DNA from: Calditrichota bacterium
GTDB taxonomy: Bacteria; Calditrichota; Calditrichia; Calditrichales; J004
Reading direction: 5' to 3'
Length of the DNA stretch: 38,509 nt
Assembly (NCBI GenBank): GCA_003696775.1
Contig: RFFS01000155.1
Coordinates: 1 to 38,509, forward strand
Positions 15,833 through 26,473 of the stretch are shown here, in pieces. The first letter of the stretch is position 1, and each line of letters opens with the position of its first letter. A program made the position numbers and the translations under genes. The notes beneath the pieces were generated by a model. That model searched no databases. It saw only the letters and a program-made list of their open reading frames with translations, and was not told the DNA's origin.

Positions 15833-16936
15833 TCAGCTACTGAAAATCCACTTATATCGCGCGTTGACATTGCCGTCTTTGGGATTGATTTTCTTAAAGC
15901 GCCAGGATTTTATGCGTCGGCTTATACAATTTTCCACATTGCGATTTTTAAGGGAGGAATTCACTATACGTACGCGTGTAACACGTCCGTTGGGCGCTAT
16001 GGTAAATTGCACTGTTACGCTACCTTTAAGATTCGGATTGATACGTGCTTCTTTTTTGTAACATTGTTGGATACCTTGTGTATGCTGAGCAACAACCTGT
16101 CCGATAGCATCCTGGGAACGATTGGTAGCTTTGGATCCACGTCCGGAAACGCCACCGCCAACTCCTTTTATGGAAAAACCGGCATCACGTTTAATATTAA
16201 CACCAGACCCTGTGCCGACACCACTGCCGGAAATCAGGTCATCAATACCGGCACGTCCCTTACGTCCGCCACCGCCTTTACGTTCACCGAGGGAGGAACG
16301 ACGGTTGGATGAGGACGCGGTAACCAAGCCGTCCGCGTTACCGATGGCATCTTCCAGATTACCCAACCCGGCATCGCCACCTTCACCCAGCACATCATAA
16401 ACAGCGTCACCCGTGCCACCGCCACCACTGGCGGACAATTCACCCAACACACCCGTGCTGGCAACTTGTTGTTGTACCCGGGAACGCTGGGCGCCCCTTC
16501 GTGCGGCGGCCCGTCGGGCTTGTTCACGTCTTTCCTGCGCGGATTGCCCACTGGCTTCTTCCCTTTTACCCTGATCCTGCTTGGCGCGGGTATCTTCCTT
16601 GGGAGCTTCTTCTTTTACACCCTCTTCGGCAGCCAGGGCATTGTCTTCCACCTGCACTTCTTCAGGTTGCGGCTCTTCAAATTGAGTAGCGTAGAATTTT
16701 TGGATATATTTTTCCTTTATGGCGCTTTGTAGTTCCTCACTGGAAAATTCCATATTTGCCAGTATGGCAATTGTGGTAAACGATAGTAATAAGGAGGAAA
16801 AGAGGATCAGAAAAAAACGCTTATCCATACCCTCGAAAAAGTTTTTTTCAAACTCTTTCGGGAAGCTAACTATTCTGTATCCACCTCCGGAACGCGCCGC
16901 GCCCTGTGCCTGTAACTTTTTCTGAAATGTATCCAT
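15833..16936 (-). CDS. TonB-like envelope-spanning protein with AgmX/PglI-type C-terminal domain
   Basis: A 367-residue inner-membrane protein probably reaching across the periplasm. A short cytoplasmic N-terminus precedes one membrane helix (residues 40-62). Then come an acidic Glu/Pro/Gln stretch (about 84-125), an Arg/Ala/Gln helix-forming stretch and a long Gly/Ser-rich linker (about 165-275). The C-terminal 95 residues form a TonB/TolA-like alpha-beta domain (GIQQCYKKE...NPNLKGSVTVQFTI...GRV...SSL...VENCISRRIKSWRF). Two Cys (292 and 337) sit at the positions conserved in AgmX/PglI-type domains of Myxococcus motility proteins and may form a disulfide. It follows ExbB and two ExbD genes and so likely transmits motor force outward. 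It is the last gene of the cluster, before a terminator. The family call is from recalled motif patterns, not a search. Confidence 0.82.
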   Translation of the reverse strand: MDTFQKKLQAQGAARSGGGYRIVSFPKEFEKNFFEGMDKRFFLILFSSLLLSFTTIAILANMEFSSEELQSAIKEKYIQKFYATQFEEPQPEEVQVEDNALAAEEGVKEEAPKEDTRAKQDQGKREEASGQSAQERREQARRAAARRGAQRSRVQQQVASTGVLGELSASGGGGTGDAVYDVLGEGGDAGLGNLEDAIGNADGLVTASSSNRRSSLGERKGGGGRKGRAGIDDLISGSGVGTGSGVNIKRDAGFSIKGVGGGVSGRGSKATNRSQDAIGQVVAQHTQGIQQCYKKEARINPNLKGSVTVQFTIAPNGRVTRVRIVNSSLKNRNVENCISRRIKSWRFKKINPKDGNVNARYKWIFSS

Positions 16937-16955: not shown

Positions 16956-17441
16956 TTAACCTTTTTTAATTGTTAACAGCCGCATATTATAATATTCCGA
17001 TTTGCTGCAGGTAAACATCACTTTGTACAAAAGGTCAAAATGCATATCCTTGTCTCCCTGGATAATGACCGTATGTTTGAACTCCTTACCCACATCAGCT
17101 TCCAGTTGGCGTTCCGTTTCCGCAAATTCCGACAAAACCTGGGAGAGTGGTTTGATCAGAACACTTTGGGGATCGACTTCACTTAACGACATAACCGGTT
17201 TATTATTCACCAAAATATCATTTTTGGTCACGGAAACCTGAAGTTCCTTCTTCGGTTTTTCACCGATGACGGATTCCGGAAGAGTCAGATCCGCGGACTG
17301 TGTTACCAGAGCGCCTTCCGTTGAAAAGGATTTGAGAAGGAATAACAGGATGATGGTCATCATATCCATCATCGAGTTCATATTAAGTTGTCCTTCTTCC
17401 TTTTCAAGGTGTCTTTTGGATTTGGATGGTTGAAAGGCCAT
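16956..17441 (-). CDS. ExbD/TolR-type motor subunit, canonical Asp present
   Basis: A 161-residue single-pass inner-membrane protein. The cytoplasmic N-terminus is charged; the membrane helix starts at LNMNSMMDMMTIILLFLL, and Asp26 aligns with the ion-carrying Asp of ExbD (Asp25) and TolR (Asp23). A periplasmic domain with the pattern LQVSVTKNDILVNNKPV and HTVIIQGDKDMHFDLLYKVM follows, as in ExbD/TolR. ATG at 17441 has GGAG upstream. It lies 18 bases after the other ExbD gene and 19 bases before the TonB-like gene. Two ExbD-type genes next to one ExbB resembles the Myxococcus AglRQS motor. It would work with ExbB to convert the ion gradient into motion. Confidence 0.9.
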   Translation of the reverse strand: MAFQPSKSKRHLEKEEGQLNMNSMMDMMTIILLFLLKSFSTEGALVTQSADLTLPESVIGEKPKKELQVSVTKNDILVNNKPVMSLSEVDPQSVLIKPLSQVLSEFAETERQLEADVGKEFKHTVIIQGDKDMHFDLLYKVMFTCSKSEYYNMRLLTIKKG

Positions 17442-17459: not shown

Positions 17460-18011
17460 TTATTTTAAAATACTTCCGAAATTCACTTGAGGAAACAACG
17501 GCAATTCTTTGCCATCCTCATCGGTATAGGTTTGCACATTGTCTATTAAATCAACAATATTTTTATAGGCCACGTCATTGGAAGCTGTAACCACGGCGCG
17601 GTCCTGATCGCGGTATCCTTTACCGGCAATCTTCTTCTTAATTTCAATCAACTTTTCACGCAAACCGTCAAAATCATACGAGCCATCGGGCTTGTTGGGT
17701 ACCGTGGGGCCATCGCCTTCACCGGAAGTCAGGATGGCGCTGGCATTGGCAATGCTGATTCCATCGTCGGTTAAGGCCAGCTTAAGCCCCAGTTTTTTGG
17801 TCTCTTCCTTCTGGTCGTTTTCCTGGTTTGCATCACCCGTTCCGACGGACTTGGCGGGCGGAGCATTGATCTCGATGGCTCCGAGCTTTACCCATTGGGC
17901 GCCTTGCAAAAGCAAGGGAATCAAAACAACCATAAGGTTCATAACCGGCCGGATATCAAGCTCCATATCAACATCTTCGGTGTTGCGCCGCATTGATGGT
18001 TTATATGCCAT
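17460..18011 (-). CDS. ExbD/TolR-type motor subunit with Asn replacing the ion-carrying Asp
   Basis: A 183-residue single-pass inner-membrane protein of the ExbD/TolR type. The segment LDIRPVMNLMVVLIPLLL aligns with the family start-of-helix pattern (I-N-V-T-P-x-I-D-V-M-L-V-L). At the position of the ion-carrying Asp there is Asn25, encoded by AAC. An acidic Asp19 lies six residues earlier, outside the usual position. A periplasmic domain follows (KLGLKLALTDDGISIAN ... DRAVVTASNDVAYKNIVDLIDNV), with an extra low-complexity Asn/Gln/Glu/Lys stretch at about residues 58-72. ATG at 18011 has AAGGGATAAG upstream. It lies between ExbB and the Asp-bearing ExbD, so the two could form a mixed dimer in the ExbB pore. 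Confidence 0.88.
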   Translation of the reverse strand: MAYKPSMRRNTEDVDMELDIRPVMNLMVVLIPLLLQGAQWVKLGAIEINAPPAKSVGTGDANQENDQKEETKKLGLKLALTDDGISIANASAILTSGEGDGPTVPNKPDGSYDFDGLREKLIEIKKKIAGKGYRDQDRAVVTASNDVAYKNIVDLIDNVQTYTDEDGKELPLFPQVNFGSILK

Positions 18012-18048: not shown

Positions 18049-18711
18049 TTAACGATTTCCGGTGATCAGATTGATCAATTTAACAAGATGTTCATCCAAC
18101 TCGTCAATGATTTTACTGGTCCGATTGGTAATAACCGTATAGGCAACAAGTGTCGGAATGGCTACGGTAAGACCAAAAATCGTTGTATTCATAGCGGTTG
18201 AAATACCTTTTGCCAACAATTTCGATTTTTCCGATTCCGGAATACCTTCATGACCAACGGAAGCAAATGAAAGGATCAGACCGTAAATCGTACCCATAAG
18301 ACCGGTCAGCGTGGCAACATTAGCCAGCATGGAAAGATAATTGGTGCGTTCCTTCAGCTTGGGAATCACTTCCAACGTCCCTTCATCCACGGCATTTTGA
18401 ATGGCGCGAAAATCCAGTGTTTCACTTTCATTGGCGCGTTTTAATCCACGTAACACAACAAAAGGCAACGCTTTTTGTTTTCCTTTTTCACATAATTCGA
18501 TCGCGCGTTCAATATTACCTCCGGCGACAAGTTTACGAATCTCAGCCATGAATTTATCGGCATTAACATTGGAACGAACCATAATATAATAAATACGTTC
18601 AATGGCGATCGCCATTGCAATGGCTCCAAAAAATGCGATGAAATACATATAGAAAGAGCCGTCGCTGCTCCACGCAAAGGATTCACCAAATTGGCTAAAA
18701 AAGATATCCAT
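18049..18711 (-). CDS. ExbB/TolQ/MotA-type proton channel subunit
   Basis: A 220-residue inner-membrane protein with three predicted helices: about 21-45, 127-152 and 170-196. The second holds the conserved TLTGLMGTIYGLILSF (Thr136, Thr141), and the third GISTAMNTTIFGLTVAIPTLVAYT, with polar residues lining the channel in ExbB/TolQ. The large cytoplasmic loop (46-125) between helices 1 and 2 and the short tail match the topology. ATG at 18711 has AGGAGG eight bases upstream. In ExbB-ExbD and TolQ-TolR complexes five copies surround two ExbD/TolR helices. It is the first motor gene of the cluster, followed by two ExbD genes. Confidence 0.93.
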   Translation of the reverse strand: MDIFFSQFGESFAWSSDGSFYMYFIAFFGAIAMAIAIERIYYIMVRSNVNADKFMAEIRKLVAGGNIERAIELCEKGKQKALPFVVLRGLKRANESETLDFRAIQNAVDEGTLEVIPKLKERTNYLSMLANVATLTGLMGTIYGLILSFASVGHEGIPESEKSKLLAKGISTAMNTTIFGLTVAIPTLVAYTVITNRTSKIIDELDEHLVKLINLITGNR

Positions 18712-18744: not shown

Positions 18745-19047
18745 TTATCGTTGACGATTTAAGAGTTTGTCAATATCAATTCGGTTAGTCTGATCACTAA
18801 ATACATAATCGAATTTTATTTGTTGCCCTTTATCCAGAATTTCATTTAAAAAAGATTTTTCCAAATTTACATCCTGAAATTCCGGCTGGATACGTTTTCC
18901 GATGATCTGCACCTGGGGCTTTTCCACTTCTATTTTGATAATCGCTTCCCCTACTTCCACCACATCCCCTTCTTCTCCCTGGGCTTCCTGAGCTAGTGCC
19001 ATAAATGGTATAAAAAACAAGACGGCTAAACAGATAAATTTTTTCAT
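18745..19047 (-). CDS. Small secreted protein of unknown function in the Exb/TPR cluster
   Basis: A 100-residue protein with a clear signal peptide (cleavage near ALA-QE, residue 19/20) and no lipobox. The mature part opens with an acidic Gln/Glu/Gly run and continues with alternating hydrophobic residues (VVEVGEAIIKIEVEKPQVQI), then a basic IGKRIQPEF and a charged C-terminus ending LNRQR. No family recognised. It starts 2 bases after the stop of the 1594-residue TPR protein and lies 33 bases before ExbB, so it is very likely translated with the cluster and acts in the periplasm. A partner or adaptor between the TPR proteins and the motor is possible. Confidence 0.75.
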   Translation of the reverse strand: MKKFICLAVLFFIPFMALAQEAQGEEGDVVEVGEAIIKIEVEKPQVQIIGKRIQPEFQDVNLEKSFLNEILDKGQQIKFDYVFSDQTNRIDIDKLLNRQR

Positions 19048-19049
19048 AA

Positions 19050-22000
19050 TTATTGTCCCGGAATAATTCGGTTTTTCTTAACGATATTGAGCTGTACCAG
19101 TTTTTCGGGCGGTAATGCAATTTTTTCAACGATCTTCTTATCCTCGTTTGCCTTAAGAAATTCTGAAGGAATCACCTCAAAATAGGCATATAATTTCAAT
19201 CCCGCCTGTGTTTTATCCTTATCTATTACATCTATTGCTATGATGTTTGTACCATTGCTGATGAAACGATCAAAAGTATAAAAGTCAAGCGAATCCAATA
19301 CCATAAGATCATCATCGGGATCATCAAGCAAATACTCACCGTTCAGGTAAATGCGGAAATCATTGTCCGCAGTAACATAGATGCGTCCGTCCACGACTTT
19401 TCCGTCTATGGTGAAATCCTTACGGAAAAAGACCAATGTGTCATTAACCACGGCCGCGCCCAAAGTGGGTACGGGTTGAACAGCGTTGGAATCAGCTGTG
19501 GCGGCAACAGTTGCATTGGTATCAGCGACCGTGACAGCCAATGTATCCGTCATATTCGAATCAACCGCTGCAACGGTTGTGGAATCTGCTGAGGGCAGGC
19601 CTACTTGCAGGGTATCCCGCGTGGTATCACCGGCCGTGGTGGTAGTTGTGATCACATACCAAATAGCCTGCGGATTAACACCCAGACTATCAAATTGATT
19701 GAATCCCGAGGGAACCACCTGGGCAAAATCCCAGCCACTGTCATCAAAATCTTTCTCTACCCAGCTTGCGCCAAAGTCATTATTGGTTACCTTCCAACTG
19801 GTATCGCTAAATATTTCCACTTTTTCCTTATCAATACTTTCAGAATATTGGGCAGGATCGATTTCAAGCAATTTGAGCATTAAACGATTGGCCCATGATC
19901 CTTTGATTTCATGATCGGTTTTAATTTCAAAGGCTTTTTCCAACAGGGCGAGACTGTTTTCATCCAATGCAAAGAAGAAGGATTCCGTTGCGGAAAGACC
20001 ATCCTGATAGTTATAGTTTTTTGTGGAATCGAAAAAAGCCTGATACCGTTGCGAAACTTTATTGGAGGAATCGGCCAAAACTTTCATTCGACCGGCCGAT
20101 TCCAGGGCGAATTTTATTAAACGATCCTGTGTGGAACGCAAAAGATCATTTTCAACATTATTTTCCCTGGCCAGCTCAAGCGTGTTGGCAAACGCATCCA
20201 TGGCGTTATTGGCCATTTGTATGCTGAGGTCCACCATTTGCAACGCATTGTTTTCTAAACCGTAATAATCCAACCCTTCCGCATTCTTTGTGCCGAATTC
20301 CTTTTCGATAAGCTGTTGATATTCATCAAAATTGCGTTCGAATTCATCAAGAGCGGCTTCGGTTAACTGTACATATTCATCCGCAAGTATATTGGAAGTC
20401 AACAAAATTTGTCGTTTCGATTCTTCCACATATTTATTGGATAATTTAAGTTCATCAGCTTCATTCACATTACGTATATGCGCTTTTATAGTTTGCTGAA
20501 CAGCAGGCGCCACCACTTTATTTATCACCCCGGCCTGGTAGAGAATGGTACTAAAGGCATCTTTTACCGGCGGTTTCAGATCACGGATATTATCCACATT
20601 TTCAGAAGTCAACGACGCTTCGGTATATAATAATTGGGATATTTTATCATGTGCTTTATCATACCATTTCAGAGCCAATTCTTTTGTGGAGTCCTGTTCT
20701 GCCTCACGTCGCACATCCGCTGAATCGATTATGGCCGTCTGAGCGGTATCCTGTCCAAACATATCCACATTAAGTTTTTCGGCAATCACCGGAATTTTCT
20801 CAATGACATCCTTATAGCGATCCACGGCATTTTCATAAAGCGCAGCCGCCTGTTCATTGATTGTTTTTTTCTTTACAAAATATTTAGTCGGGTCTAAGTT
20901 CGGGTCCACTTCCTGTTGGGCATACGCGTTTGCAAATTCCTCAAAGGATCGCGCGATATTGAACGTCGCTTCAAAACTTCTCGGCGAACCAAATGCCAAT
21001 ACTTTGGTATAGGCCGTGTTTAATTCCTTTAGCAACGTTTTCATCTTTTCCTGTTGGGCTTTGATGTTAGATTCAGGCAAGGTTAAACGTATGGAAACAT
21101 ATTCATCATGTAAAATATCGGCGAGTTTATTAACGGCTTCTCCGGCAATAAAGGGATTATAATCTTTTCCGGCTCGTTTAAATTCCTCACTTTTGGCGAT
21201 AGCCTTGTTAAATTCGATTTTTGCCGCTTCTTTTTGGCCGTTGTCCAGATAATATTTACCGCGTTCATAAAATGCGGTAATTACACGACTGTCATTCGGA
21301 TAACGCTTAGCAAATTCATCATAAATCCGATTGGCTTCGGCCAGATTATCGAGTTTGAGATACAAATCGGCATTTTTAAAGAATAAATCCTTGGCGTATT
21401 CCAAATTGGGGTACGTATTGATATAAATATTATTGACCCGAATGGCTTCGGCCCATTCACCCGCTTTTTGATAGAAATAGCTGGCATTATACAATTTGGA
21501 TTCGGCGTCTTCTTTTTTAGGATACGTGTTAAAAATACGTTCCGAAACCTGGGCCGCATTGGCGTATTGTTCCAATTCCTTATAATTTTCCACCATATTA
21601 TTCAGTGCATCATAAGCGAATTGGGATTCGGGGAACTTGTCGGCAATAATGGCAAACACTTCATTGGAACGAATCCAATCACGGGCCTTTTGATAATTAA
21701 GACCGGCATTCCATAACGCGGGCTCCACATACCGTTTGTCATCTGGTACTTCTTTATAAAGTCTTAGGTATTCATTGGCCGCAGCAAAAAAGTCGCCCTG
21801 TTCCGCCAGAAATTCGGCATTTTTGAAAATAGCTTCCGCCAGACGTTGACTGGCGAACTTGCGCTGGTCATCGGGCAGAGTGGAGTCGGCGAGTATCTTT
21901 TTGGCAATAACTTCGGAATCCTTAAACTTGCCCAGAGCAAAGTATGAGTCCATAATGGAACGCATGGCCAGGCTCTTCTCCCGGGCACCGGGGAATCGTC

Positions 22001-23834
22001 TGACAAGGGTTTGAAAATATATTTTAGCTTCGGCAAATTTTTTGTGATTATAATAGATACCACCGGCCGCCGCCAGAAAGTTGGGTGTATATTTTCCATT
22101 GGGAAAAAGCCGGATATAATTGTCGTAGGCCTGAATTAGATTAGTTTCTTCCGGCGATAACGTTTCGGGATTTAACTGAGCGATATCCGCTAAATTAAAT
22201 TTCACCGAATCACCCTGGCTGCCATATTTGATTTTTACAATGGTATCGGCTACGCCAACGGCATAAAGGGCGGCATCATGCTGATGATTCTCTTCCAGAT
22301 AATCATTGCTGACGGACAGGTATTGTTCAAAGGCTTCTTCAAAGTCACCCAGTTTCTGGTCCAGGGCCTTGGCATAATTCCAATGTATTTCATAGGTATT
22401 GGAATCGCTGGGGAAAACATCGAGATAAAGCTTACATTCATCCGCAAACTTTTGCCATGCCGGTCGCGCCTGGGTTATCCCTTCGGCATCCTTGGCCTGG
22501 GCATCTTCCAAATCGGCGATTAAATTCGCGCGGAAGGCTTCCTCGCTTAATTTATAAGCCTTACGTAAATATTTTCCACGATCCTTGCGATCGGAGTTTT
22601 CAAGATTGGCATACCACTCGCTTTGCGGGCCATAATTTTGGTATAACTTTTCCCGGGCGTCATACGCTTCCTGATCCCGTCCCTTGGCATACAGGGCCTG
22701 GGCAATCTTCTTCTGAATGACGGGTGCTTCCACATAATCGGGAAACATTTCCAACAATGTCTGGAAAGCGTAGATCGCTTTTTCCTGTTCATCAATTTTT
22801 TGATACGTATCCCCTATCGCCCGCATAATTTCAACACCATAGGGGCGATCACCCAACCGTTCAACCATTTTACGGGCTTTATCCACACCCTGTTTGGTAT
22901 AGGATTCATCGGTAAAACTGATACCGATATAGGTGATGGCTTCATCACGTACATTGGGTGTGCTGATTTTATTTTTGGGGTCCAGTTTCCGCGCGCGGTC
23001 GATATCGTCCGCAACGGCAACAAAATAAACGATGGCGTCATTATAATATTTAGGGTCTCTCGAAGCCAGTTTATAATAACTCCAACCTAATTTATACAAT
23101 GCTTCATCGTACCTTCTGGAATTTCGATAGCCTAACACCTTTTTATATAATTGAATCGCTTTACGTAATTCCAAAACCACCTGATTTTCATCGGTCTTAT
23201 CCGGACGGGGGCGGAAAAAATATTCGGCTAACTGTATATAGGACTCCGGAGCGAAACGGGAATCGGGATATTTATCGATAACTTCCTGGAACAAACGCCG
23301 ACTTTTGGCGCCTTCGCCCATTTGCGCCAGCAACCAGGCTTTACTATATAAAGCGTCATCGGCAAATTCACTGGCCGGATATTCATTTAACAGTTTATCA
23401 TATATTTTAATAGCCTTGGAATAATCCAACTTCGGTTCTTCCGGTGGAACCGGTTCGGTATCCAACTCTCCGGCATCAAATTTTTCCAGAGCTTCCAAAT
23501 AGGCATCTTCCTTTTTGGAATATTCTTCATAAGCTTTTTCCTGATCGCGATCGGCCTCTTCTATGTAATATTCAGCAATACGGATGTAAATTTTATCACG
23601 GTCTTTTATTTTGATTCCTTCGTCCGTTAAAAAACTTTCTCCCAGTTTTTTACCTTCGGTAAGCGATTGAGCTTCTTCCGAACGCAGGCGATCCACTTTT
23701 CGGTTGAAGTACTTGCGGATTTTAATCAGCTCGTCTATGCTCACTTTTTTAAAAAGCGAATCACTTTTTACATTCTGGGCTTGCAAACCGCTAAAGGCTA
23801 ACAATACGCTTAATAAAGTAATTTTTATCTTCAT
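19050..23834 (-). CDS. Giant periplasmic TPR protein with C-terminal interrupted jelly-roll-like domain
   Basis: A 1594-residue exported protein. The ATG at 23834 begins a normal signal peptide ending near LQAQ; an in-frame TTG at 23852 would add six residues. Most of the protein (about 100-1250) is helical with many TPR-like units of the BamD/YbgF kind (e.g. AIKIYDKLLNEYPASEFADDALYSKA, shortened here as IYDKLLNEYP...DDALY). From about 1335 the character changes: SWKVTNNDF...WVEKDFDDSGWDFA, then after a Thr/Ala/Asp-rich insert, FFRKDFTIDG...YVTADNDFRIYLNGEYL...NIIAIDVID. This reads like a galactose-binding or sugar-binding jelly roll split by about 80 low-complexity residues. It follows the other TPR gene by 20 bases and precedes the small secreted protein by 2. 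It is likely the scaffold of the motor complex, comparable to TPR proteins of Myxococcus Agl/Glt clusters. Confidence 0.82.
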   Translation of the reverse strand: MKIKITLLSVLLAFSGLQAQNVKSDSLFKKVSIDELIKIRKYFNRKVDRLRSEEAQSLTEGKKLGESFLTDEGIKIKDRDKIYIRIAEYYIEEADRDQEKAYEEYSKKEDAYLEALEKFDAGELDTEPVPPEEPKLDYSKAIKIYDKLLNEYPASEFADDALYSKAWLLAQMGEGAKSRRLFQEVIDKYPDSRFAPESYIQLAEYFFRPRPDKTDENQVVLELRKAIQLYKKVLGYRNSRRYDEALYKLGWSYYKLASRDPKYYNDAIVYFVAVADDIDRARKLDPKNKISTPNVRDEAITYIGISFTDESYTKQGVDKARKMVERLGDRPYGVEIMRAIGDTYQKIDEQEKAIYAFQTLLEMFPDYVEAPVIQKKIAQALYAKGRDQEAYDAREKLYQNYGPQSEWYANLENSDRKDRGKYLRKAYKLSEEAFRANLIADLEDAQAKDAEGITQARPAWQKFADECKLYLDVFPSDSNTYEIHWNYAKALDQKLGDFEEAFEQYLSVSNDYLEENHQHDAALYAVGVADTIVKIKYGSQGDSVKFNLADIAQLNPETLSPEETNLIQAYDNYIRLFPNGKYTPNFLAAAGGIYYNHKKFAEAKIYFQTLVRRFPGAREKSLAMRSIMDSYFALGKFKDSEVIAKKILADSTLPDDQRKFASQRLAEAIFKNAEFLAEQGDFFAAANEYLRLYKEVPDDKRYVEPALWNAGLNYQKARDWIRSNEVFAIIADKFPESQFAYDALNNMVENYKELEQYANAAQVSERIFNTYPKKEDAESKLYNASYFYQKAGEWAEAIRVNNIYINTYPNLEYAKDLFFKNADLYLKLDNLAEANRIYDEFAKRYPNDSRVITAFYERGKYYLDNGQKEAAKIEFNKAIAKSEEFKRAGKDYNPFIAGEAVNKLADILHDEYVSIRLTLPESNIKAQQEKMKTLLKELNTAYTKVLAFGSPRSFEATFNIARSFEEFANAYAQQEVDPNLDPTKYFVKKKTINEQAAALYENAVDRYKDVIEKIPVIAEKLNVDMFGQDTAQTAIIDSADVRREAEQDSTKELALKWYDKAHDKISQLLYTEASLTSENVDNIRDLKPPVKDAFSTILYQAGVINKVVAPAVQQTIKAHIRNVNEADELKLSNKYVEESKRQILLTSNILADEYVQLTEAALDEFERNFDEYQQLIEKEFGTKNAEGLDYYGLENNALQMVDLSIQMANNAMDAFANTLELARENNVENDLLRSTQDRLIKFALESAGRMKVLADSSNKVSQRYQAFFDSTKNYNYQDGLSATESFFFALDENSLALLEKAFEIKTDHEIKGSWANRLMLKLLEIDPAQYSESIDKEKVEIFSDTSWKVTNNDFGASWVEKDFDDSGWDFAQVVPSGFNQFDSLGVNPQAIWYVITTTTTAGDTTRDTLQVGLPSADSTTVAAVDSNMTDTLAVTVADTNATVAATADSNAVQPVPTLGAAVVNDTLVFFRKDFTIDGKVVDGRIYVTADNDFRIYLNGEYLLDDPDDDLMVLDSLDFYTFDRFISNGTNIIAIDVIDKDKTQAGLKLYAYFEVIPSEFLKANEDKKIVEKIALPPEKLVQLNIVKKNRIIPGQ

Positions 23835-23854
23835 ATGCTTATGTCCAAACAATC

Positions 23855-26473
23855 CTACTGATTATTGTCCTGATTGTCTTCATCATCAAAACTGGGTGGA
23901 ACGGTTGTGTTATTTGGATTTTCGGTTTCCGATTCATGTGTATCGAAATAACTTTCTTCAAATTGACGGTACAATTCTTCCCGTTTCCGGATACGTTCCT
24001 GACGACGTACACGGCGCGTCATCAATGTGATTTCATCTTTAATGCGGTTAATGGTATGTTCAATATTTTCCTTACGTTGGATGAGCAAATCGTTGATTTT
24101 CTGTATCTGGTCACGTATTTGACCAATTTGCTGTTTTTGCAAATTGCGTACGGCAAAATTCACATTGGCCAGACCAAAAGCACCGTAATCACTCCAGCGA
24201 GACAGGTTTATATTGGTTTTCCTTTTTTTAAGTGAATAGGTCCAGGTCTGGATATAATCCATTTTCTTCAACAAGTCCTGAAAACGGTCTTTACTTACCG
24301 ACAAATTAGCCACTTTACGATAATCACGCCGTGCCCGGGCATTGCGAATGGCCATTTCGAGCTTGTTTATTTCCCTGATGACTTTTTCACGCTCTTTTCG
24401 GGCATCCTGGCGCATTTTATCCACTTTGGCATTCTCATGCTCCACAACGCTTTCCTTCCGGGCCAGGGGGTGCTCGTCAAAGTAGTTAAAACCAAGCGGG
24501 GACGATTCAAAAACCGGCATATCGTTCAGAGCGCGATATATTTTAAGTTTTAGATCATCGATTTTATCTAGAGCCACTTTATTGCCCTTTTCTTCCGCTT
24601 TTACTTTAAGCCGGTCGAGTTCCGCCAGTTGCTTCTGCAAACGGGAACGTTCATTATTGGCCGCGGCACTAACCGGACTTAAATCCTGATATTTCAATTT
24701 ATTTAAAGGGTCTGTTACAGTTTGCAACATCTGCTGTGCCCGGCTATAAGCAACCGGATTATTTTTTAACAAGGCCTTTTTTTCCAACCTTTTGGCGGTT
24801 TTGACAATGCTTTCCAGCTCTGCCTGTTCCACATTAAGATTATCGGATAAATCCTTGATATTTTTGGCGTTATAGGCATATCGAAAATTTTCCAGGGCAC
24901 CGTTGGTATCCAATTCCAGTTGATTGATATATCCCAGGAGCGTTTTGGCTTCGAGATAATATTCGCTGTTGGGATAATCATCTATCACCACTTCCAGATA
25001 TTTTTTGGCCTGGCTAAAATTACGCGATTGCACCAACACTTTTTCGATTTCCATTTTATAATAAGACCAACCATAGCCCATCAGAACCCGATCATAACGG
25101 GAGTAATTACCGCCCACCTGATTGAACAGGGCAATCGCTTCCCGTGGCTGGCCCATTTCGTACCTTATAAAACCCATTTTAGCCAGTATATCAAACCGGA
25201 AATCCGGCTCAAGGGAACGGTCATTTAAAATAGAGCCAAAAGTAGCAAGTGCATCTTCAAAATTACGCGCACCGGCCTGGGCTTCGGCCTGAATATAACG
25301 GGCATAATTATAAACGGGAGAATTGGGTTCCACTTCAAATGCCATATTGACGGCTTCTTCATATAAGGAACCGTTATAGGCTGCGTTTATAGCCTTTAGT
25401 AAAGCTTCCTGATAAAATTGATCGGTTGTGGAAACCACATTTTGCATTTCACGGAAATAGTTTACAGCATCAATGTAATTTTCATAATGCGAAGCAATGG
25501 TAATTAAATTGGTGTAAGCCTGACCGCTATAAGCCGAGGATGCATAATCATTGATTAACTTATCAAAGCTTTCTTTTGCGGCGTTATACCTTCCGAGTAA
25601 AAAGTCGCATTGTCCTTTATAAAACAGCACATCATCCAGTTGGCCCACATCCTTGTATCGCTTCAGGATTTCAGAAAAAGAAAGGCCGGCAAATTCATAA
25701 TAACCGAAATTGTATGCCTGGGCCGCATTACGCAGTTCCCTTTTGAACATGCGCTCCAATTCCGAAATGGACGATTTTTTAATCAGTTTTTTCTTTAAAA
25801 CCTCCACATCGGTCAGCCGTACAAGATATTTGATTCGCTGAGTACGTTGCCATTCTTTGTAAATATCAAACACGCCGGGGTTGGATTTGACCATGCGTTT
25901 TTTATTGCCCGTGGCCGTCCGTCCCTTATGTCCAAAAGCCGAAGTGGATTTCTTTTCTAATTTAGACAACCCTTCGCTGATTTGGGGATTGGCACTTAAA
26001 TTGACATTGGGATCCATTTTTATCAGCTCTTCGGCCAGATAAAGGAGCTGGGTGGCGTCATCAAACACTTTTTGACGTTTGTAATCGACGATACCGGCGT
26101 CAATGGTGTTTTGGATTCTTTGGGAGAGATCATCTATAAAATTAAAAATCTGACTCCCTGCCGAAGAGGGCAGACGATTTTTAATTGTTTTGATTTCATT
26201 CAGGCGGGTTTGCAGTTTATCAAAATAAGTTTGACGTTTGGCTGTCACATCACCTACACGGGTACGCAATTCCTCATTCAGCATGCGCAATTGCTGAACC
26301 AGGAAACGTTCTTTTTCAATATTCTCTTCACCAAAGCGGATCAGCAGTTTATCCACATAGGATTTAAGGCTTTCCTGGAATTGCTGATCGGTTAATTGAT
26401 ACGCTTGTAATGGAGAAAGAATACTGATGGTCAGGATAATTGATAACCAAACCAAAAGGGCTTTACTTTTCAT
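23855..26473 (-). CDS. Large periplasmic TPR/coiled-coil protein, first gene of the Exb cluster
   Basis: An 872-residue exported protein with an N-terminal signal (ending near PLQAY), no lipobox. A predicted helical coil (about 40-120) is followed by TPR-like units at about 240-540 (e.g. FAGLSFSEILKRY...DDVLFYKGQCDFL, AKKYLEVVIDDYPNSEYY). A long Lys/Arg/Glu-rich coiled coil runs from about 590 to 840. The tail is Asn/Asp-rich (NNTTVPPSFDDEDNQDNNQ). ATG at 26473 has AAGGTG upstream. A candidate promoter lies in the 76-base gap after atpC, and the second TPR gene follows at once. The domain plan matches other motor-associated TPR scaffolds; no enzyme motif was seen. Confidence 0.8.
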   Translation of the reverse strand: MKSKALLVWLSIILTISILSPLQAYQLTDQQFQESLKSYVDKLLIRFGEENIEKERFLVQQLRMLNEELRTRVGDVTAKRQTYFDKLQTRLNEIKTIKNRLPSSAGSQIFNFIDDLSQRIQNTIDAGIVDYKRQKVFDDATQLLYLAEELIKMDPNVNLSANPQISEGLSKLEKKSTSAFGHKGRTATGNKKRMVKSNPGVFDIYKEWQRTQRIKYLVRLTDVEVLKKKLIKKSSISELERMFKRELRNAAQAYNFGYYEFAGLSFSEILKRYKDVGQLDDVLFYKGQCDFLLGRYNAAKESFDKLINDYASSAYSGQAYTNLITIASHYENYIDAVNYFREMQNVVSTTDQFYQEALLKAINAAYNGSLYEEAVNMAFEVEPNSPVYNYARYIQAEAQAGARNFEDALATFGSILNDRSLEPDFRFDILAKMGFIRYEMGQPREAIALFNQVGGNYSRYDRVLMGYGWSYYKMEIEKVLVQSRNFSQAKKYLEVVIDDYPNSEYYLEAKTLLGYINQLELDTNGALENFRYAYNAKNIKDLSDNLNVEQAELESIVKTAKRLEKKALLKNNPVAYSRAQQMLQTVTDPLNKLKYQDLSPVSAAANNERSRLQKQLAELDRLKVKAEEKGNKVALDKIDDLKLKIYRALNDMPVFESSPLGFNYFDEHPLARKESVVEHENAKVDKMRQDARKEREKVIREINKLEMAIRNARARRDYRKVANLSVSKDRFQDLLKKMDYIQTWTYSLKKRKTNINLSRWSDYGAFGLANVNFAVRNLQKQQIGQIRDQIQKINDLLIQRKENIEHTINRIKDEITLMTRRVRRQERIRKREELYRQFEESYFDTHESETENPNNTTVPPSFDDEDNQDNNQ

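Follow-up and report, generated by a model that had tools for sequence, protein, structure and literature searches.

An ExbD paralogue lacking the ion-carrying aspartate, paired with an aspartate-bearing partner in AglRQS-like operons across many bacterial groups

The window analyzed here, a stretch of 38,509 nucleotides from a Calditrichota bacterium (contig RFFS01000155.1), encodes an ExbB-type ring protein followed by two ExbD-type proteins, of which the first (ExbD1) has asparagine at the position of the ion-carrying transmembrane aspartate and the second (ExbD2) retains the aspartate, and this pairing recurs across the bacterial domain. Judged from sequence, the operon probably specifies an ExbB/TolQ/AglR-type envelope motor that is driven by protons and whose axle is necessarily a heterodimer, with one ion site per ExbB ring. 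The evidence leaves about evenly balanced the broader proposal that there is a widespread class of such ExbB-type motors, which would share an axle that is always heterodimeric and bears just one protonatable site, a half-sited 5:2 arrangement using about five ions per turn as opposed to ten, and a matching ring residue beside the ion-path threonine.

The aspartate site in ExbD1 and ExbD2

ExbD1 is encoded on the minus strand (18011..17460; 183 aa; protein start MAYKPSMRRNTEDVDMELDIRPVMNLMVVLIPLLL), as is ExbD2 (16956..17441; 161 aa), and both exceed the Pfam ExbD cut-off (PF02472, 25.4 bits), at 36 and 56 bits respectively. The helix of ExbD1 reads LDIRPVMNLMVVLIPLLL, in which residue 25 is Asn (codon AAC, 17937..17939, minus strand) and Pro32 follows seven residues later (codon CCC, 17916..17918, minus strand), a proline that accompanies most Asp-less ExbD1s. 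ExbD2 reads LNMNSMMDMMTIILLFLLK around the same site, with Asp26 encoded by GAT (17364..17366, minus strand). Placement of the site was consistent in all comparisons: phmmer aligned LNMNSMMDMM of ExbD2 onto INVTPFIDVM of E. coli ExbD, at the pore Asp position; ExbD1 and ExbD2 aligned without gaps around it; and when ExbD1, ExbD2 and canonical ExbDs were aligned together, the site residue occupied a single column in 167 of 167 sequences. Both parts of the original prediction, that Asn25 of ExbD1 occupies the position of the ion-carrying Asp and that the neighboring ExbD2 keeps Asp26, are thereby borne out. Asp19 of ExbD1 was considered as the true pore site and rejected, in that position 19, six residues ahead of the site, is not a conserved Asp: 36 of 68 Asp-less homologues have Asn there and 23 have Asp.

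Nor was any replacement acid found, with Asp or Glu at positions 20–38 of the ExbD1 helix in 0 of 68 Asp-less sequences, while the residues flanking the site still follow the ExbD pattern (Pro22, Leu30, Leu34). As related systems can also have Gly, Ser, Thr or Ala at the site, the ion-carrying role appears to have been lost, as opposed to a mere change of ion. ExbD1 passes the PF02472 profile cut-off but has Asn25 in place of the ion-carrying transmembrane Asp, and because that Asn is also invariant in the phylum, the protein is best regarded as an ExbD homologue yet not an ion-carrying ExbD. It had no match to the NCBIfam ExbD or TolR equivalogs, and ExbD2 scored 23 bits against the 127 required for tolR. 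A PDB sequence search found no relative of ExbD1 and weak ExbD/TolR matches for ExbD2; AlphaFold monomer models of both, built on four close sequences, were of low confidence.

An ExbD1 orthologue was present in 37 of 40 Calditrichota genomes, and the site is Asn in every one, comprising 36 full-length sequences and one fragment at a contig edge (L112). Among 30 aligned Calditrichota ExbD1s, with identities down to about 40%, Asn25 and Pro32 are invariant, as is Asp26 in 28 aligned ExbD2 partners, and Asp is likewise retained in the further ExbDs of these genomes that were examined (one single ExbD and one tandem set). The source genome is a draft of 201 contigs, a circumstance in which Asn25 could be a sequencing error or strain-specific mutation, but its occurrence in 37 Calditrichota genomes refutes this explanation and reduces its probability to nearly nil. 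The comparison of orthologues proposed with the original prediction therefore has Asn fixed in ExbD1 (37/37) and Asp fixed in ExbD2 (28/28) throughout the phylum, with no Asp-bearing ExbD1 orthologue among the 37.

Operon structure and spread outside Calditrichota

The operon lies on the minus strand and has a recurring order of two TPR proteins, a small protein (about 100–130 aa), ExbB, ExbD1, ExbD2 and a GltG/TonB-like protein. In the window these are a TPR/BamD-like protein of 872 aa (23855..26473); a giant TPR protein of 1600 aa with matches to TPR families (19050..23852), whose place in the gene order is conserved; a small protein that begins with a signal-like stretch and has no family match (18745..19047); the ExbB/TolQ/AglR-type ring subunit of 220 aa (18049..18711; Pfam MotA_ExbB, 81.5 bits); the two ExbDs; and a GltG/TonB-like protein of 367 aa (15833..16936) with an AgmX/PglI C-terminal domain (NF033768, 107 bits, cut-off 40) and TonB_C. 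The last of these is also the next gene in most related operons; it did not reach the GltG equivalog cut-off (90 vs 650 bits). A gene of similar size to that for the small protein directly precedes ExbB in many related operons, and given this recurrence the small protein may belong to the machine as a constant component. In Calditrichota the operon is followed by genes for AspRS, a small protein, a LysM protein and a PhoH-like protein, the last names being assigned by reading of the sequence.

Profile searches, with a profile of Calditrichota proteins and then one of 30 diverse homologues, after which the loci were read, found ExbD1 across the bacterial domain, in 65 genomes of 47 family groups outside Calditrichota, and the trio of ExbB, ExbD1 and ExbD2 recurs in these other groups. 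An oddity of one genome is thus excluded. The ExbD1 site is non-Asp (Asn, Gly, Ser or Thr) in 54 of the 65 genomes; counted by genome, 47 have Asn, 3 Gly, 2 Ser, 1 both Asn and Thr, 11 Asp, and 1 both Asp and Asn in two separate systems, so that Asn is by far the most frequent non-Asp residue. In all 67 adjacent pairs of the first non-Calditrichota set ExbD2 has Asp, as it does in scattered or contig-split cases and in 64 of 64 readable pairs among those newly collected. The division into one Asn-type and one Asp-type paralogue thus extends beyond the phylum to many groups, with other non-acidic residues besides Asn. In two larger phyla, reached via genomes G067 and G304 and perhaps Myxococcota and Bdellovibrionota respectively, Asp and non-Asp ExbD1s both occur, and Ala is a further non-Asp residue in the second. 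A bias from the mostly-Asn search profile was considered as a source of these counts and rejected, since an ExbD2 profile, to which the ExbD1 residue makes no difference, retrieved essentially the same genomes; the two paralogues therefore co-occur. No relatives were found in IMG/VR, and plasmids gave no match.

A tree of 167 sequences placed ExbD2 in one group (support 95) and canonical ExbDs in another, with ExbD1 holding both Asp and non-Asp members and 8 direction-free state switches on the best tree, most of them weakly supported. There were also several unusual arrangements. Second Asn-type ExbD1 copies occur in L096 (G166) and L128 (G300), with no ExbB or ExbD2 in the stretch read, near an edge of which L128 lies; these copies weigh against the heterodimeric axle. 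In family group f76, Asp-type ExbD1 and ExbD2 lie in separate genome regions (L088/L172, L123/L173 and L126/L174), with no ExbB beside either in the stretches read. L147 (G260:C81:35000-43000) and L162 (G117:C267:6500-14000) each combine a single ExbD1/ExbD2 pair with two ExbB genes that lie ahead of it or on either side, and the rings of these genomes might therefore themselves be mixed. One genome (G072) has both an Asn/Asp motor with Thr at ExbB position 176 (L094) and an Asp/Asp motor with Asn at that position (L150), and provides a natural side-by-side comparison of the two kinds.

A ring residue that follows the state of ExbD1, and the possible motor

Thr141 and Thr177 of ExbB, the two pore threonines of 5:2 ion-driven motors, are invariant in 140 of 140 ExbBs. 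We take these to be equivalent to Thr148 and Thr181 of E. coli ExbB, and residue 172 to be equivalent to E. coli Glu176. Thr148 and Thr181 have been named as essential pore residues in E. coli (PMC12905483). In the first set, 7 of the 11 Asp systems have Glu at residue 172, vs 1 of the 64 Asp-less systems. The residue adjoining the second threonine, position 176 (Thr176 and Thr177 in the window, 18181..18186, minus strand), tracks the Asp or non-Asp state of ExbD1. In the first set the separation was complete, Asp-less systems having Thr (63) or Ser (1) and Asp-bearing systems Asn (6), Cys (4) or Ala (1). When the rule was tried on 65 newly collected systems, Thr was found in 27 of 27 Asp-less systems and a residue other than Thr in 33 of 38 Asp-bearing ones, giving overall Thr or Ser in 91/91 Asp-less systems and Asn, Ala or Cys in 44/49 Asp systems, with Thr in the other 5/49. 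The five exceptions (L234, L237, L242, L246 and L250) combine ExbD1 Asp with ExbB176 Thr, and all have Phe seven residues after the Asp. Canonical ExbBs from Asp-only systems vary at 176, with Thr in two from this genome and Ala or Asn in some others. Thr in the five exceptions and in these canonical proteins counts against the reading of a heterodimeric axle.

Pro32 was likewise associated with Asp loss in the first set (59/60 Asp-less vs 0/15 Asp), but as an absolute companion it was rejected, the association being broken in further phyla by four Asn sequences without Pro and four Asp sequences with it. In the Asp-with-Pro systems (L213, L225–L227) ExbB176 is Ala or Cys, and in the Asn-without-Pro systems (L199, L210, L212, L223) it is Thr, so that ExbB176 tracks the Asp state where Pro32 fails to do so. 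The best ExbB tree has 8 state switches, of which well-supported branches force 3, and a sign test on these was not significant because three switches are too few. As position 176 lies beside the invariant pore Thr177, its coupling with ExbD1 argues from sequence that the Asp-less helix sits within the ExbB pore. The mixed dimer in the pore, which the original prediction had proposed, is thus supported in an indirect manner, through this coupling and the co-occurrence of ExbD1 and ExbD2.

Alternative explanations place ExbD1 elsewhere or give Asn25 a different role. The two paralogues could form separate homodimers, with ExbB5:(ExbD2)2 as the working motor and ExbB5:(ExbD1)2 as an inactive, regulatory or storage complex; ExbD and TolR are homodimeric in solved motors (PMC12905483), and whether AglQ and AglS pair within one complex has been stated to be unknown (PMC9389320). 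That one ExbD1 is strictly matched with one ExbD2 in many groups fits a heterodimer more naturally, however, and the coupling with ExbB176 does not favor a mere side complex, so we consider separate homodimers unlikely. To a similar degree it is doubtful that ExbD1 lies outside the ring as an accessory subunit, like the TonB helix, with ExbD2 alone forming the axle. A helix out of the pore would be free to lose its Asp, and some ExbD1 genes do lie apart from the trio, but the ExbD1 helix keeps the three conserved residues of the ExbD pattern, its state tracks a residue adjoining a pore threonine, and Asp is essential in Myxococcus AglQ, the first ExbD after AglR. Homodimers or an ExbD1 outside the ring thus account less well for the coupling and the strict pairing than does a mixed axle. 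Asn can deamidate, and Asn25 could still take part in ion passage by conversion to Asp or as a neutral ligand of Na+, a reading consistent with the prevalence of Asn among the non-Asp residues; some related systems, however, have Gly, Ser, Thr or Ala in the position of this Asn, and as Gly and Ala are capable of neither, this seems very improbable.

A mixed axle in which ExbD2 alone would carry ions is the simplest account of the data. One ExbD2 helix and one ExbD1 helix would lie within the ExbB pentamer; Asp26 of ExbD2 would take up and release the ion, which Asn25 of ExbD1, or the Gly, Ser, Thr or Ala found elsewhere, could not do. Since ExbD1 is otherwise intact, in both its helix and its periplasmic ExbD domain, it probably makes up the second half of the axle and offers the GltG/TonB-like and TPR proteins a binding surface of its own. 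In the published model, two axle Asp swap protonation at each 36-degree step (PMC12905483; PMC9389320). If only one of the two axle helices carries ions, an alternating 5:2 model would use about five ions per turn, not ten, with 72-degree or unequal steps. We infer the pore location of ExbD1, the heterodimer, the stoichiometry, the ion count, the step size and the mechanics, including the asymmetry of the motor that the original prediction had proposed. Models of the flagellar stator and of Ton, Tol and gliding motors assume two equivalent, alternating Asp and ten 36-degree steps, and a natural one-Asp motor across dozens of bacterial groups, if real, would mean that one site can suffice. It would lend itself readily to tests of the coupling between ion passage and rotation, with ExbB176 singled out as a specific ring residue for mutation, and would bear on the role of the second ExbD in AglRQS-type motors.

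Comparison with known systems

A literature search for natural Asp-less ExbD, TolR or MotB proteins, covering few subscription journals, returned nothing relevant, and no published description was found. As in the E. coli ExbBD-TonB and TolQRA systems, the window encodes a ring protein with both pore threonines, an ExbD-type helix with periplasmic domain, and a TonB-like protein, but the E. coli systems have one ExbD species and two Asp per motor, whereas here there are two species, one without Asp; the window proteins did not reach the NCBIfam ExbD, TolR, ExbB or TolQ equivalog cut-offs. Fibrobacter succinogenes FSU_2400-2403, compared by published gene order alone, has the same order of ExbB, ExbD, ExbD and TonB, and its products were more abundant on cellulose, for which the authors proposed TonB-dependent cellodextrin uptake (PMC6851124).

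The closest likeness is to the AglRQS/Glt core of Myxococcus xanthus gliding, with one ExbB gene, then two ExbD-type genes, and GltG-like and TPR genes together in the region. In gene content the operon corresponds to the Glt/Agl core complex that was described as one gene region in Geobacter and in non-deltaproteobacteria including Fibrobacteres (Luciano et al. 2011, PMC3169522). A myxobacterial-type locus (L109) clusters with the present ExbD1/ExbD2 set, and its ExbD1, 162 aa long, and its ExbD2, with about 194 aa at most, may be compared with AglQ and AglS, at 162 and 194 aa (PMC3169522); its ExbB176 is Cys vs Thr in the window. The need of AglQ for this Asp in proton use, which the original prediction had assumed, agrees with the literature on Myxococcus, where both proton conductance and motility are lost in the AglQ D28N mutant (PMC3858216). 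Both Myxococcus ExbDs keep Asp (PMC9389320), in contrast with the present operon, where the first subunit has Asn and the second Asp. The locus is a variant of the AglRQS-like ExbB/ExbD motor and not a new kind of machine.
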